Part shown: positions 5,558 through 11,307 of the stretch, in pieces
Layout of the letters: every line of letters begins with the position of its first letter
Position numbering within the stretch: the first letter of the stretch is position 1
DNA from: Candidatus Adiutrix sp.
Lineage (GTDB): Bacteria > Desulfobacterota > Desulfarculia > Adiutricales > Adiutricaceae
DNA length: 25,390 nt
Assembly (NCBI GenBank): GCA_031273445.1
Contig: JAISRV010000415.1
Span: 1-25,390 of the forward strand
Direction of reading: 5' to 3'
Made by a program: the position numbers and the translations under genes
Notes under the pieces: model-generated
Databases searched by the model: none
Told to the model about the DNA's origin: nothing
Seen by the model: the letters and a program-made list of their open reading frames with translations, nothing else

Positions 5558-6721
5558 ATGAGCAAGACGTTGATCAAGAATATAGGCTGCCTATTTTCCG
5601 GCGATATTGCCCGGCCGGTCTTGGACGCCGATGGCCTCCTCATTGAGGACGGAAAGATACTGAAGGTCGGGCGGGCTCTGTCGGCCGACGGCGTCGAGGC
5701 GGCCTACGACGCGGCTGGCCTCACCCTGATGCCCTGTCTGGTGGATAGCCATGTCCACGTGGCCATCTCCGAGTGGGCGCCCCGGCAGAACGCCATGGAT
5801 TGGCTCGGCGCCTACGCGGCGGCCGGCATCACCGGCATCATTTCCGCCGGCGAAACCCATATCCCCGGCCGCCCCTCCGACCCGCAGGGGGTCAAGGCGC
5901 TGGCGACGCTGACCCGGAAAATTTTCGCGGAGCTCCGCCCAGGCGGCGCCAAGGTCTACGCCGGGGCCGTCATCCCCGTCGTCGGCCTCACCGAGCAGGA
6001 CTTCAAGGACCTGGCCGACATCGGCGTCAACCACACCGGCGAAATTGGCCTCGGCGACGCCGTCGACCCCGAGACCGCCGGCCCCATGGCCGAGTGGGGC
6101 CGCAAATACGGCCTGCGCACCTTGACCCACACCGGCGCCGCCTTCCTGGCCGGCTCCGCCGGCATGAACGCCGACCGTATTGTCGGCATCAAGCCGGACG
6201 TCGTCTGCCATGTGGCCGGCGGCGGCATCCCCGTCGAGGGCATGCGCCGCCTGGTCGAGGAACTGCCCGCCTATATGGAGATCTGCGCGGTGAACCGATC
6301 AAATCCGAAATTCATGCGGGCGCTCGTCGATATCCTGAGGGAAAACGACGCCTTTTCCCGCTTGATCCTTGGCACCGACAGCCCTTCCGGCTACGGCGTT
6401 TTCCCGCACGGGGTGTGGGAAGTGATGGCCCTGTTGTGCGGCGCCTGCGGCCTCGAACCCGAAATTGCCGTGGCCGCCGGTTCCGGCAATACCGCCGCCT
6501 GCTATGGCCTTGAGTCCAACATGATCAAGGAGGGCTACGCCGCTGATTTGATCCTTTGCGACGCGCCGCTGGGCGCCGAGCAGGACACGGCGGCCGACAG
6601 TCTGCGCGCCGGCACCGTTCCCGGCGTCAGCATGGTGTTCATGGACGGCGAGGTTCTCGTTTCCGGCGCGAAGGTCAACACCGCCCCGCCCAAACGCGTC
6701 GCCGTCAGTCAGCGGCCATAG
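5558..6721 (+). CDS. ena: Enamidase (1,4,5,6-tetrahydro-6-oxonicotinate amidohydrolase)
   Basis: A 387-residue amidohydrolase-superfamily protein closely resembling E. barkeri enamidase in length and local sequence (IKNIG start, APRQ after the HxH motif, GRP, PPKR near the end). The binuclear metal ligands are all present: His65 and His67 (DSHVHV), Glu162 (GEIGLGD), His191 (HTGAAF), His218 (CHVAGG) and Asp274 (GTDSPSG). The E. barkeri enzyme is an Fe-Zn protein that hydrolyses tetrahydro-6-oxonicotinate to ammonia and (S)-2-formylglutarate. The ATG at 5558 follows AAGGGG with ten bases of spacing. It is cytoplasmic, with no signal peptide. The next gene is a diverged copy 22 bp downstream, and the reductase making its substrate follows. 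Dihydroorotase- or imidazolonepropionase-type activity is less likely given the neighbours. Confidence 0.93.
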   Translation: MSKTLIKNIGCLFSGDIARPVLDADGLLIEDGKILKVGRALSADGVEAAYDAAGLTLMPCLVDSHVHVAISEWAPRQNAMDWLGAYAAAGITGIISAGETHIPGRPSDPQGVKALATLTRKIFAELRPGGAKVYAGAVIPVVGLTEQDFKDLADIGVNHTGEIGLGDAVDPETAGPMAEWGRKYGLRTLTHTGAAFLAGSAGMNADRIVGIKPDVVCHVAGGGIPVEGMRRLVEELPAYMEICAVNRSNPKFMRALVDILRENDAFSRLILGTDSPSGYGVFPHGVWEVMALLCGACGLEPEIAVAAGSGNTAACYGLESNMIKEGYAADLILCDAPLGAEQDTAADSLRAGTVPGVSMVFMDGEVLVSGAKVNTAPPKRVAVSQRP

Positions 6722-6743: not shown

Positions 6744-7907
6744 ATGAACAAAACCATCATTCACAACATCGGAACCATCGTCACCGGCGATTATGAAAAA
6801 CCTGTCGCCGAAGGCGACGCCATCTGCGTCGACGGCGGCAAAATCGTCTTTGTCGGCTGGAAGGCGGACGCCCCAAAGCTTGATTATACGGTGGACATCG
6901 ATGCCGTGGGGCTGACCGTCTGCCCCGGCCTGATCGACGCCAACACCCATCCGCCGCTGGCCAACTACCTGCCCTTGTACAAAGCCTACGACTGGGTGGA
7001 CAACTACGCCGGCGCCGGCGTCGCCGGCATGGTCAGCACCGGCGGCTTCGCCTTCCCCGGCGCCGCCGCCGATGCGCCTTCCGCCAAGGCGCAGGCCGTC
7101 TTCGGCAAGTACATGTGGGACCACTACCATCCCTCTTTCGTCAAGGTGCACGATGAATGCGTGATGCTGCAACATGGTCTGACCGAGGCCGACTTCGCGG
7201 AGCTGGCCGCCGCGGGCATCCGCGTAGTCGGCGAGATCGGTCTGAGCGCGGTTAAGGCCCCCGCCGAGGCCGCCCGCCTGGCCGGCCTGGCCAAAAAGCA
7301 CGGATTTACCGTCACGCTGCACGCCGCCGCCCCCGTCAGCGCCGACGGCGTGGCCTACACGCTGGATGAAATTGAGCAGATTAACCCGGACGTCTTGTGC
7401 TGCCTGAACGGCGACCCCACCCCGCTGAAAGAAGACTGGGTGAAACGGCTGGTGCAGAGCGGCAAATACTGGTTCGACTGCGTGTCCAACGGCAACGAGA
7501 CGCTGCTTATAAAGATCGCCGCCTGGGCCAAAGAGGCCGGCACTTTGGGCAAGATGATGCTGGGCACCAACGTCCCCTCCATGTCCGGATTTTCGCCGAT
7601 GGGCCTGTGGATCCAGATGGCGGCCCTCGCCCAGAACGCCGAGGTGGACCCGGCCGTGGCCGTGGCCATGGGCAGCGGCAACGTGGCCCGGCGCTACGGC
7701 CTCGAACACGGCATCCTCGCCCCGAACATGGCCGCCGACTTCATGTTCGCCTCCACCGGCAGCATCATGCCCGACATGCTGAGCACCATCTCCTACGGCC
7801 GGGCGCCCAGCGTGGCCGGGACCTACATCAACGGCGAGGCAGGTCTGGCCAACTGTAAAAATATGGCCCCGCCCAAAAAACGCCCTGTCGTCGCCAGTCT
7901 GGCTTAA
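6744..7907 (+). CDS. Enamidase paralogue with degraded metal site
   Basis: A 387-residue tandem paralogue of the preceding enamidase, identical in length and alignable end to end (NKTIIHNIG start, GEIGLS, PPKKRP end). Three of the six expected metal ligands are changed: the first His of HxH is Asn67 (DANTHP), the fourth ligand His is Cys220 (LCCLNG), and the metal Asp is Asn276 (GTNVPSM). His69, Glu164 and His193 remain. A standard binuclear site is therefore unlikely. It keeps a strong AAGGAGAGG site, sits 22 bp after ena and 23 bp before hnr, and has no frameshift, so it is under selection. It could be a non-catalytic partner forming a mixed enamidase oligomer, a mononuclear enzyme for another ring intermediate, or a regulator. 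Confidence 0.85.
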   Translation: MNKTIIHNIGTIVTGDYEKPVAEGDAICVDGGKIVFVGWKADAPKLDYTVDIDAVGLTVCPGLIDANTHPPLANYLPLYKAYDWVDNYAGAGVAGMVSTGGFAFPGAAADAPSAKAQAVFGKYMWDHYHPSFVKVHDECVMLQHGLTEADFAELAAAGIRVVGEIGLSAVKAPAEAARLAGLAKKHGFTVTLHAAAPVSADGVAYTLDEIEQINPDVLCCLNGDPTPLKEDWVKRLVQSGKYWFDCVSNGNETLLIKIAAWAKEAGTLGKMMLGTNVPSMSGFSPMGLWIQMAALAQNAEVDPAVAVAMGSGNVARRYGLEHGILAPNMAADFMFASTGSIMPDMLSTISYGRAPSVAGTYINGEAGLANCKNMAPPKKRPVVASLA

Positions 7908-7930: not shown

Positions 7931-9481
7931 ATGGGAAATCTTTGTCGCATCATCACCGATAACTGCGTCGGCTGCGGCATTTGCCGGCGCAACTGCCCAA
8001 CCGGGGCGATCACGGCGGAAAACCGCAAGGCCAGCATCAGCGACGCCTGCGTGGGCTGCAACATCTGCTTTAAAGTCTGCCCCAAGGACGCGGTGGAAAA
8101 AATCGAGGCGACGGCCGGCAACATCCAGTGCGACTGCTGCCCGGTGCGATGTCAGGTGCCCGCGGGCGGCTATGGCGCGTGCCGGCGCTACCGCAACGAC
8201 GGCGGCGAACTGGCGCGCATTGAGCCGCTCAACGTTGTGGACCCAAAGGAAATCAGGGCCGACCCGCTCACCGGCCTGCCTGACCGTCCGCTGATGCTGG
8301 GCTTTGGCGCCGGCACCAATCTGTACTCCACCAACGTGCCCGCCAAGGTCGTCGCCGGGGCCAAGGTCGGCGATTTGGACGTGGTCTCCTGCATCACTGA
8401 GGCCGTCCTCTCTTTCAACGGCGCGCGGGTCAAGGTCGACACCGATGTGAACATCGGCTCCAATGGACAGCCCATCCGCCGTCACGGCGTCATCGTGGGC
8501 TATGTCAACACCTCCGAGTACGGCTCCCATATGCTGTACTTCGGCGGCGCGGAGTTGAACACCGGCCCCGGCGGTTTCATGGTCGCCCGCACCGTCAGTG
8601 ATCTTTTGAACAAGAAAGCCGTCGCCGTCAGCACCGACATGGTCAAAAAACTGACTCTCCAGCATGGAAAACCGCCCATCATAGACGGCGAGTGCGCCAA
8701 GTATATGCGCATCGGCTGCGGGTCCATGGTTTCTTCCGCCTTTGCCCTGCACTGGATGAAGGTCGTGGACGAATGCATCGCCATCGACTACGACGTCACC
8801 GCCAAAATGTCCACTCACACCACCAGCGGCCTGCGCTACGGCCTGCCCGACAGCGGCATCACCCCGGCGGGCGTCTACAGTTCCCCAGGGCGTTGGTTCG
8901 GCGAGCCGGGCGCCGGCTGGGGCGGCTCCAACATCATGAATCCGGAAGATGTTTTTGCCGATGTGGACAAGACGAAAGTCTGGCCCGGCATGCGGGTGGT
9001 CGTCACCGAGCCGACGCTGGAGCGAGTGGCCTATTACGAAGCCGACGCGGACCGTAACTTGGCGGAAAAACCCATTCCGCCCAAGGTGCGGGAGGTTATA
9101 GACCTGATCCACGGCAACTGCGAGCCCTGCCGCTGTAACGTCTCGGTTTGCGCCGGCTTCGGCGGCGGCGTGCGCAACGTCATCTCCAAGGTCAGCCCCA
9201 TTCTGGTCAACAAGGCCCTCAAGGCCGGCAAAGTCATGCTCACCATCTGCGGCCGCCCCGTCCACATCTGGGAGGGCGGCGGCATCACCGCGGAGTGCAG
9301 CGTGGAAGAGTGTCCCGAAGGCGCCTTTTCCTGGGTTCCCACCCCCGCGGGCGTCACGCCGCTGGAGGTCACCATGACGCGCGAGACCTATGAGGGAATC
9401 GGCGGCTATATGGAGGCCATCCGCCCGGTTGAGGAAATCCGGAAGACGGAACGCGCCAAAACAGTTTCGCTGAAGCGCTAG
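7931..9481 (+). CDS. hnr: 6-hydroxynicotinate reductase (iron-sulfur flavoprotein)
   Basis: A 516-residue protein. Residues 10-51 are a bacterial-ferredoxin domain with two CxxCxxCxxxCP motifs (C12, C15, C18, C22 and C40, C43, C46, C50). A Cys-rich stretch follows (CDCCPVRC, then GACRR). The rest matches no common oxidoreductase fold by eye but carries another Cys group near residues 395-405 (CEPCRCNVSVC). The E. barkeri enzyme reduces 6-hydroxynicotinate to 1,4,5,6-tetrahydro-6-oxonicotinate with ferredoxin and has two [4Fe-4S] clusters, one [2Fe-2S] cluster and a covalently bound flavin. The cysteine content here is consistent with that. ATG 7931 follows GAGGAAGAAG. Its product is the enamidase substrate, and the next gene is ApbE-like. 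The assignment rests on the architecture plus the full pathway around it. Confidence 0.9.
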   Translation: MGNLCRIITDNCVGCGICRRNCPTGAITAENRKASISDACVGCNICFKVCPKDAVEKIEATAGNIQCDCCPVRCQVPAGGYGACRRYRNDGGELARIEPLNVVDPKEIRADPLTGLPDRPLMLGFGAGTNLYSTNVPAKVVAGAKVGDLDVVSCITEAVLSFNGARVKVDTDVNIGSNGQPIRRHGVIVGYVNTSEYGSHMLYFGGAELNTGPGGFMVARTVSDLLNKKAVAVSTDMVKKLTLQHGKPPIIDGECAKYMRIGCGSMVSSAFALHWMKVVDECIAIDYDVTAKMSTHTTSGLRYGLPDSGITPAGVYSSPGRWFGEPGAGWGGSNIMNPEDVFADVDKTKVWPGMRVVVTEPTLERVAYYEADADRNLAEKPIPPKVREVIDLIHGNCEPCRCNVSVCAGFGGGVRNVISKVSPILVNKALKAGKVMLTICGRPVHIWEGGGITAECSVEECPEGAFSWVPTPAGVTPLEVTMTRETYEGIGGYMEAIRPVEEIRKTERAKTVSLKR

Positions 9482-9527: not shown

Positions 9528-10406
9528 ATGGCCCAGCCGAGGCCGAAGGGGCGGACTTCAGGACGGGTTTTGGCGCCCGGAAAGGTTTATTTCGACTATG
9601 GGCCGTCCTCCATCGTGGTCATGGCCGACAAGGACGGCGAACCACTGACCGACCTGTGCCGTCGGGCCTTTGACGTCATTGACGCTTCCCTCGCGGAAAT
9701 AGCCGCTGCGCTGAGTTGGTTGCGCCGCTGCCCCGCACAGATCCCCGCCGGGCAGCTAAGCGGTTTGCCGCGCCGGATGCTGGAGGCGGCGCTGGTCGTG
9801 GGCGAGCCGACGCTGACGCCGATGGCGGCCGTCGCGGGCTGCGTCTCCGACGCGGTGGCCGACTGGCTGTTCGCGCAGGGCGCCAGCCGCGTCATAGCCA
9901 ACAATGGCGGCGATGTCGCACTGCGCCTCGCTCCCGGGACATCGGCGAAAATTGGGCTCATGACCAGTCTGTGGGCCGGCCAAGTCGACCAGGCCGTCAC
10001 CATCAAGGCGGAGGACGGCATCGGCGGCGTCGCCACCAGCGGTCTGGGAGGCAGAAGCCTGACGCGCGGCGTCGCGCGGGGCGTCAGCGCCTTTGCGCGG
10101 CGTTGCATCCTTGCCGACGCCTTGGCCACCCATCTGGCCAACTGCTCCTACATTCCGTCTGACCAGGTGTTGACCATGAAGGCCGGCGAGGTGGATCCAA
10201 ACAGCGACATCGGCGACCTTGCCGTAGTCGTCGACGTGGGCCGACTTGATCACAAACTGACGAAACAGGCGCTGCGTCAGGTGGAGCGCGAGGCGAGGCG
10301 ACAAAAAGAGAAGGGCAATCTGATTGCGGCCTGCGCACGCGTGCAGGACGATTCGCTGAACTTTGAAATGCCGGCCGAGGCCTGTGCGCCTGATGGTCAA
10401 GAGTAA
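9528..10406 (+). CDS. UPF0280-family ApbE-like protein, candidate flavin transferase or maturation factor for Hnr
   Basis: A 292-residue cytoplasmic protein with features of the ApbE-like fold: NNGGD at 125-129, TSG at 170-172 and ADALAT at 196-201. These correspond to the GG(D/N), TSG and ADAL(S/T)T motifs of FAD:protein FMN transferases. UPF0280 proteins are related to ApbE in structure but have no established reaction. ATG 9528 follows AGGGGAGAGG, 46 bp after hnr, and the gene ends 13 bp before hgd. Because the homologous 6-hydroxynicotinate reductase contains covalent flavin, a role in attaching that flavin is attractive. This is inference. The protein lacks the lipoprotein signal and periplasmic location of classical ApbE. 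Confidence 0.8.
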   Translation: MAQPRPKGRTSGRVLAPGKVYFDYGPSSIVVMADKDGEPLTDLCRRAFDVIDASLAEIAAALSWLRRCPAQIPAGQLSGLPRRMLEAALVVGEPTLTPMAAVAGCVSDAVADWLFAQGASRVIANNGGDVALRLAPGTSAKIGLMTSLWAGQVDQAVTIKAEDGIGGVATSGLGGRSLTRGVARGVSAFARRCILADALATHLANCSYIPSDQVLTMKAGEVDPNSDIGDLAVVVDVGRLDHKLTKQALRQVEREARRQKEKGNLIAACARVQDDSLNFEMPAEACAPDGQE

Positions 10407-10419
10407 TCGGGAGGATATT

Positions 10420-11307
10420 ATGAAGGTGGGCTTTATAGGTTTGGGAGCGATGGGTCGTCCGATGGCGAAGCGGCTGAGGGGGGCTGGATTTGAGCTGTCG
10501 GTGTATGACGTGATGGCGGCGGCGGCGGAGGAACTGACCGCGCTGGGGGCTGTGGCCAAGTCCAACCCGGGCGAAGCGGCGGCCTCCTCGGAGCTTATCT
10601 GCTTAAGCCTGCCGAACTCGGCGATCCTGAAGGAGGTCATGTTGGGGGAGAACGGGGTGATCAAGTCTTTGGAGCCCGGTTCTCTGGTCGTCGACCTGAG
10701 CTCGGTGGAGCCGCAGGTCAGCCGCCGACTGGCCGAAGCGGTTGAAGCCCAAGGCGGCGCCATGATCGACGCCCCGGTGTCCGGGGGAGTGGTCGGGGCC
10801 GAAAACGGCGCGCTGACCATCATGGTCGGCGGCAAGAAGGAAGATCTGGACAAGGCTCAAGAAGTTCTGAAACACCTGGGCAAGAAGGTTTTCCACGTGG
10901 GCGGCCCCGGTTCCGGGCAGGCCGTCAAGCTGGTCAACAATCTGCTCCTGGGGGCCAATATGGCCGCCGCGGCCGAAGCTTTGACCCTGGGCAAAAAGCT
11001 GGGCTTGACCCCGGAAACCATGCTGGAGGTCATCAGCCAGAGCTCAGGGGCCAGCTATGCCTTGTCGGCCAAGGCCGAGAAGTTTATCTACCCGGGCAGG
11101 TTCGAGCCTGGTTTCGCCGTGGACTTGCAGTACAAGGATTTGGAGTTGGCCGTGAGCACGGCCAAGAGTCTGTCGATGCCGCTGCCGATGGGCAATACGG
11201 CTCAACAGCTTTATGAGATCGCCCGGGCCGGCGGCCGTGGACGCGAAGACATTTCCTCGGTCATAAAATTCTATGAGGAAATGGCCAAAATCGAGGTGCG
11301 GTCCTGA
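10420..11307 (+). CDS. hgd: 2-(Hydroxymethyl)glutarate dehydrogenase
   Basis: A 295-residue member of the 3-hydroxyisobutyrate/6-phosphogluconate dehydrogenase family. The N-terminus has the dinucleotide-binding GLGAMGRPMA motif. Residues 117-123 read DAPVSGG with the substrate-binding Ser121. The catalytic Lys170 lies in GSGQAVKLVNN with Asn174 after it. E. barkeri Hgd, about 300 residues, reduces (S)-2-formylglutarate with NADH to (S)-2-(hydroxymethyl)glutarate. I chose ATG 10420 because GGGAGG precedes it by six bases and the Rossmann motif begins at once. An upstream in-frame ATG at 10363 would overlap the previous gene and add a non-conserved tail. The next gene starts two bases after the stop. 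Tartronate semialdehyde reductase is the main alternative, but the neighbours argue against it. Confidence 0.92.
   Translation: MKVGFIGLGAMGRPMAKRLRGAGFELSVYDVMAAAAEELTALGAVAKSNPGEAAASSELICLSLPNSAILKEVMLGENGVIKSLEPGSLVVDLSSVEPQVSRRLAEAVEAQGGAMIDAPVSGGVVGAENGALTIMVGGKKEDLDKAQEVLKHLGKKVFHVGGPGSGQAVKLVNNLLLGANMAAAAEALTLGKKLGLTPETMLEVISQSSGASYALSAKAEKFIYPGRFEPGFAVDLQYKDLELAVSTAKSLSMPLPMGNTAQQLYEIARAGGRGREDISSVIKFYEEMAKIEVRS

Follow-up and report, generated by a model that had tools for sequence, protein, structure and literature searches.

A UPF0280 protein encoded beside 6-hydroxynicotinate reductase as a candidate cytosolic flavin transferase

The stretch of DNA analysed here, referred to as the window, is a 25,390-nucleotide contig of Candidatus Adiutrix sp. 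(JAISRV010000415.1). Its forward strand encodes, at 9528–10406, a UPF0280-like protein of 292 amino acids that is proposed to act as a cytosolic flavin transferase for the product of the preceding gene, a homologue of 6-hydroxynicotinate reductase (Hnr; 7931–9481). The ATG of the UPF0280 open reading frame is preceded by ggggagagg, judged by eye to be a good ribosome site, and the gene is placed 46 bases past hnr and 13 bases ahead of hgd on the strand common to all three. The last of these (10420–11307, with the start set by eye; the open reading frame list starts it at 10363) encodes a 2-(hydroxymethyl)glutarate dehydrogenase-like protein, Hgd. Upstream of hnr are two tandem genes for enamidase-like amidohydrolases that differ from each other (5558–6721 and 6744–7907). 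The forward-strand cluster as a whole encodes RidA, the two amidohydrolases, Hnr, UPF0280, Hgd, a serine-dehydratase-like protein, a B12-binding mutase-like protein, a PrpF-like isomerase, MutL and an isocitrate-lyase-family protein; from its predicted products it reads as a nicotinate fermentation set, and its content presumably matches that of Eubacterium barkeri.

Hnr comprises a 2[4Fe-4S] ferredoxin domain, a third four-cysteine site (C67/C70/C74/C84) and a C-terminal part with no family match, Pfam GCV_T_C matches to this part being weak (E 0.005–0.057, in four of 10 proteins). Beyond low-probability rows, Foldseek and VIA found only the ferredoxin domain, although these were whole-protein searches with 50 rows shown each and the C-terminal part was not searched alone, so that the absence means little. 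The neighbour had been described beforehand as Hnr-like, and this is borne out by its full-length similarity to the Hnr homologue that E. barkeri encodes (38% identity, 192 of 507 aligned columns) together with the nicotinate operon context. Hnr of E. barkeri has reportedly been purified and is said to contain flavin in covalent linkage together with one [2Fe-2S] and two [4Fe-4S] clusters; by analogy, the window Hnr may be flavinylated in the same way.

The preliminary description had singled out ApbE-like NNGGD, TSG and ADALAT motifs in a protein taken to be cytoplasmic, and all three motifs are real. NNGGD (9900–9914, residues 125–129) has its GGD aligned with the GGE of ApbE, whilst TSG (10035–10043, residues 170–172) and ADALAT (10113–10130, residues 196–201) contribute Ser171 and Asp197, which are aligned with the Ser and Asp of the ApbE triad; Asp197 and Thr201 presumably have a metal role. 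The motifs are not the product of chance, since key residues are invariant across an alignment of 77 sequences (including that of the window, and picked from the best 120 of 1051 matches): D129, D197, A200 and T201 are found in 77/77, and S171 in all 76 sequences that have a letter there. No hydrophobic N-terminal signal was seen on reading the sequence. The best-matching family model is NF003322 (NCBIfam PRK04334; E 6.4e-57), although the score of 192.8 bits is below its cut-off of 290; by sequence, the protein is related to UPF0280/COG2122 and lies outside the curated cut-off. A Pfam search with the window protein returned no family at E 0.001, and only chance matches came from searching PDB sequences with this one protein. 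The best 120 of the 1051 relatives carry the precomputed Pfam label PF27030, many of them also an ApbE label; UniRef names one of them FAD:protein FMN transferase (FAD, flavin adenine dinucleotide; FMN, flavin mononucleotide).

The strongest result of the analysis is that UPF0280 of this type is near-obligately paired with Hnr, which was the outcome of a co-occurrence check suggested at the outset. The Hnr-linked type was set at ≥140 bits, a threshold chosen once the scores were seen (the next score was 79). Among 395 genomes of the window's phylum, Hnr was found in 59, Hnr-linked UPF0280 in 60 and both in 58; in G170, the only genome with Hnr alone, 304 bases separate the downstream side of Hnr from the contig end. 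UPF0280 lies downstream of Hnr on the same strand at 57 of 63 Hnr places in this phylum, and Hnr-linked-type UPF0280 without Hnr inside 4 kb occurs at five places (G113, G142, G144, G184 and G331). Hnr is present in 11 of 299 genomes of the E. barkeri phylum, and Hnr-linked UPF0280 in exactly those 11. All 26 PLSDB plasmid records with Hnr have UPF0280 downstream on the same strand; by organism name they are all alpha- or beta-proteobacteria and 12 are Sulfitobacter, so they are not 26 independent cases. Loci from named genomes (the best 80 of 112 UPF0280 relatives, a sample biased toward the long type by its long-type query) contain an Hnr match in 76 of 80, one of them a fragment, and in 73 of these 76 the end of Hnr is no more than about 0.7 kb upstream of UPF0280, being farther in L008, L051 and L074. 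In three of the four loci without Hnr, the contig ends no more than about 400 bases from UPF0280.

That the window protein has an ApbE-like fold is well supported by its predicted model, for which the proposed comparison with ApbE found the ApbE fold. Sequence homology between UPF0280 and ApbE extends over 94 columns (E 8.3e-12), with the catalytic Ser and Asp matched by S171 (76/76) and D197 (77/77). The window protein falls short of the PF02424 cut-off (25.6 bits), as do the relatives checked other than the UPF0280 proteins of G449 and G399, which pass singly (28.7 and 27.4), and that of E. barkeri, which passes only when summed over the frame (30.8). A PF02424 match was present in 17 of 17 genomes checked, and in G639 and G681 the sole, weak match is UPF0280 itself. 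A single classical ApbE turned up in the window genome, which is 71.67% complete; the protein retains the His segment, and its N-terminus reads as hydrophobic and signal-like. It shares one open frame with an upstream MATE-like transporter (L002:1-2460, by reading), either as a fusion or as a mere open frame.

We consider it probable that Hnr-linked UPF0280 works in the cytosol as an Mg2+-dependent FAD:protein FMN transferase, a variant of ApbE that matures the neighbouring Hnr. In such a mechanism, UPF0280 would hold FAD in a cleft of the ApbE type and transfer its FMN moiety to a hydroxyl group on Hnr, the simplest choice being Thr156 in D/E-x-x-S/T-x-x-T-E, with release of adenosine monophosphate (AMP); once attached, the FMN would accept electrons from the Hnr iron-sulfur clusters and reduce 6-hydroxynicotinate. 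The candidate attachment site, D150-V-V-S-C-I-T156 (8378–8398, forward strand), is spaced like the ApbE target motif D-x-x-[S/T]-G-A-[S/T] as defined in section 8 of PMC12052999. In a set of 160 Hnr sequences the Thr156 column holds T 158 times and S twice, with D/E at −6 in 158, S/T at −3 in all 160 and Glu next in all 160, and the relaxed D/E..S/T..S/T pattern is found in 158. Thr156 is the only conserved S/T of Hnr that fits the relaxed pattern, a result given by random placement of conserved columns in 85 of 20000 cases under a null that is lenient, as conserved sites cluster and the motif was relaxed post hoc.

A number of observations weigh against this reading. The ApbE segment with the catalytic His (HxxxPxTG) falls in an alignment gap and is missing from UPF0280, and the general-base His of ApbE (H257 in Vibrio cholerae) matches H260, which is invariant in 32 ApbE rows. 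In the window protein the place of this segment (RYSHIxxPxTG) is occupied by GGRSLTRG (10047–10070, residues 174–181); the GGRSxTRG loop, the lack of a signal by reading and a target without the strict motif set UPF0280 apart from ApbE, Ftp and FmnB (PF02424), and because the His segment is missing UPF0280 is not filed as a classical ApbE. The same loss favours an alternative in which UPF0280 is needed for Hnr but transfers nothing, serving in FAD delivery, in FAD-to-FMN trimming (as a pyrophosphatase or chaperone) or in iron-sulfur cluster insertion. The pairing with Hnr would serve this equally, and entry titles place Ftp, a bifunctional FMN transferase/FAD pyrophosphatase, among the best fold matches; however, Ser171 and Asp197 are retained, and the covalent flavin that Hnr is said to carry needs some attachment route, so such a helper appears unlikely.

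As regards the target, the strict DxxS/TGAS/T motif occurs in 0/160 Hnr sequences, Gly-Ala being absent from the Hnr version, and Thr156 is within a predicted strand and not in a loop. As regards linkage, six of the 63 Hnr places have no adjoining UPF0280 (G113 and G170 at contig ends, G223 with a partial match, G142, G144 and G023), two genomes have Hnr-linked-type UPF0280 but no Hnr (G184 and G331, the latter divergent, with GED for GGD), one named-genome locus (L016) is a true orphan, and enamidase-like amidohydrolase genes accompany UPF0280 nearly as often as Hnr does, at 71 of 80 loci. (One locus without an enamidase-like gene, L021, carries molybdopterin-hydroxylase genes of the type that nicotinate dehydrogenase would need.) As UPF0280 also tracks the enamidase-like genes, linkage alone cannot tell a role on Hnr from another role in nicotinate breakdown. 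This leaves room for a flavin that attaches itself to Hnr, through an 8-alpha link to Cys263, His296 or another residue, with UPF0280 acting elsewhere in the pathway. PMC12052999 reports self-catalytic attachment for FAD proteins with His, Cys or Tyr linkage, and C263 is found in 76/76 and H296 in 75/76 Hnr sequences, Cys263 being the main candidate among rival attachment sites. We nevertheless hold this to be quite improbable, for it leaves a near-absolute pairing of Hnr with an ApbE-fold protein across three or more phyla unexplained. It is the ApbE fold, taken with the covalent flavin attributed to Hnr, that singles out the Hnr role, and that the role of UPF0280 is tied to Hnr is well supported. 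Of the flavin transferase first proposed in the preliminary description, the ApbE-like fold, the adjacency to Hnr and the Hnr-tied role have held; the catalytic His segment of ApbE is missing, and flavin transfer itself is our inference.

A transferase of this kind would have a partial precedent in the cytosolic ApbE of Klebsiella, which serves fumarate reductase, itself the model target for the strict motif (PMC12052999). The likeness lies in cytosolic action on a soluble reductase, as proposed for UPF0280; unlike UPF0280, the Klebsiella protein is named ApbE there and its target fits the strict motif. The window gene was also suggested to be a founding example, which it is not: E. barkeri has hnr, UPF0280 and hgd in the window's order (NZ_FNOU01000012.1), and the two UPF0280 proteins are 52% identical over 260 columns, although in E. 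barkeri, unlike the window, the UPF0280 start (set by eye) overlaps the end of hnr. Neither the name UPF0280 nor an account of how Hnr gains covalent flavin was found in the open papers searched, subscription journals being outside the search. The pairing with Hnr points to one gene as a candidate for flavin attachment and, if this is true, protein flavinylation would extend to a cytosolic branch with an altered active site and an altered target.

The family has a second, shorter branch (COG2122, including DVU1097 and 2o34), to which the window protein is similar in both structure and sequence in the case of 2o34. The Hnr-linked type is longer (about 290 against 250 amino acids), has Hnr and not HcyBio as its partner, carries Ala or Cys in place of the GICTSSG Cys and has R176 where the short proteins mostly have His (13/17). 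Short UPF0280 was present in 91 of 98 genomes with HcyBio (PF01837) among 148, and seven genomes have it without HcyBio. It lies within about 1.5 kb of HcyBio at eight of eight loci in the phylum of the Dehalococcoidia genome G400 (seven of 61 genomes) and inside that range at none of 30 HcyBio loci examined in the window's phylum, where coordinates place the two as neighbours in at least G012, G031, G059, G077 and G144. Among the 11 genomes of the E. barkeri phylum that carry Hnr, HcyBio occurs exactly in the three with both short and long UPF0280 (G603, G681 and G700), in each of which HcyBio and the short gene are ≤0.9 kb apart on the same strand. No PF01837 match was found in the 71.67% complete window genome (G000). 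That each branch has a single partner points to UPF0280 acting on that partner.

MA1715, which we take to be a member of UPF0280/COG2122, belongs to a different line of explanation, in which UPF0280 is a sulfur-trafficking or persulfide protein, as proposed for COG2122 in homocysteine synthesis. The short branch has the Cys of GICTSSG in 17/17 sequences. In Hnr-linked UPF0280, however, 44 of 77 sequences, that of the window among them, have A at this position and 32 have C, and the 11 further rows have A ten times and C once; the sulfur role fits the long branch poorly because no Cys is conserved throughout it. Moreover, eight of the 11 Hnr genomes of the E. barkeri phylum have no HcyBio and only Hnr-linked UPF0280, and nicotinate breakdown is not known to transfer sulfur. 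For Hnr-linked UPF0280 a sulfur role thus seems very improbable, whilst the short branch may still carry sulfur. The proposal is that of Rauch and colleagues, as cited in Price et al. (2018) and PMC12068725; the former reports that COG2122 is required for homocysteine synthesis in Desulfovibrio, with a cofitness of 0.98 to DUF39, and the latter describes COG2122 as a sulfur-trafficking protein, with no mention of flavin by term search of that text.

Only tentatively can the transferase reading be widened to the whole family, with two branches of cytosolic flavin transferases, each for one iron-sulfur-linked reductase family: the long for Hnr, the short (COG2122) for HcyBio/COG1900 (homocysteine and coenzyme M synthases). 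HcyBio as a covalent flavoprotein is only a proposal; it would carry FMN on the Thr of its D-V-V-T-T-G-T motif, five residues ahead of a conserved Cys that is here equated with the essential Cys54, and COG2122 would be a maturase rather than a sulfur carrier. The motif is found in 33 of 36 aligned HcyBio rows, at least one of which (L164) is in the wrong frame. If true, this would give a new reading to COG2122, required for Desulfovibrio homocysteine synthesis and lately described as sulfur-trafficking. Homology between Hnr and HcyBio was considered and rejected: a similar run was seen by eye (DVV.....SG, then GG...DL..GK.V.L), but hhalign was not significant (E 0.16–0.3). The segments picked by eye reached a score of 15.1, below the highest value from 60 column shuffles (18.8), and other segment pairs attained as much as 18.3. 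The HcyBio set behind the segment scores and part of the hhalign comparison likewise retained at least one wrong-frame row (L164).

The surroundings of UPF0280 genes that lack Hnr vary. The orphan of L016 has a TetR-like gene directly upstream and a permease-like gene downstream (by reading), and the divergent protein of G331 (L141:1465-2331; no Hnr match in the genome), which has GED for GGD and no GGRS, is encoded beside a TRAP-transporter-like protein, again by reading. On a Hydrogenophaga plasmid (L226:2789-6867) an IS1071 transposase gene lies upstream of an orphan UPF0280, and a 44-amino-acid open reading frame resembling by eye the C-terminus of Hnr is left; this locus has probably lost Hnr. 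At three of the proteobacterial Hnr loci (L221, L222 and L224), UPF0280 is followed by 'amino acid synthesis family' genes.

The architecture of Hnr varies also. No Hnr–UPF0280 fusion was found among 84 Hnr relatives, each of ≤547 amino acids. Seven proteobacterial Hnr proteins (L221–L228) read as being without the N-terminal 2[4Fe-4S] domain and keep the motif around Thr156, so that the shared unit of Hnr is the third four-cysteine site with the C-terminal part. A ferredoxin-NADP reductase gene is found near Hnr in two annotated loci (L221 and L222), and in a Dehalococcoidia genome a 978-amino-acid Hnr frame (L056:7051-9984), the upstream part of which matches the Pyr_redox_2 and glutamate synthase small subunit models, may represent a naturally occurring fusion between an NAD(P)H reductase and Hnr.
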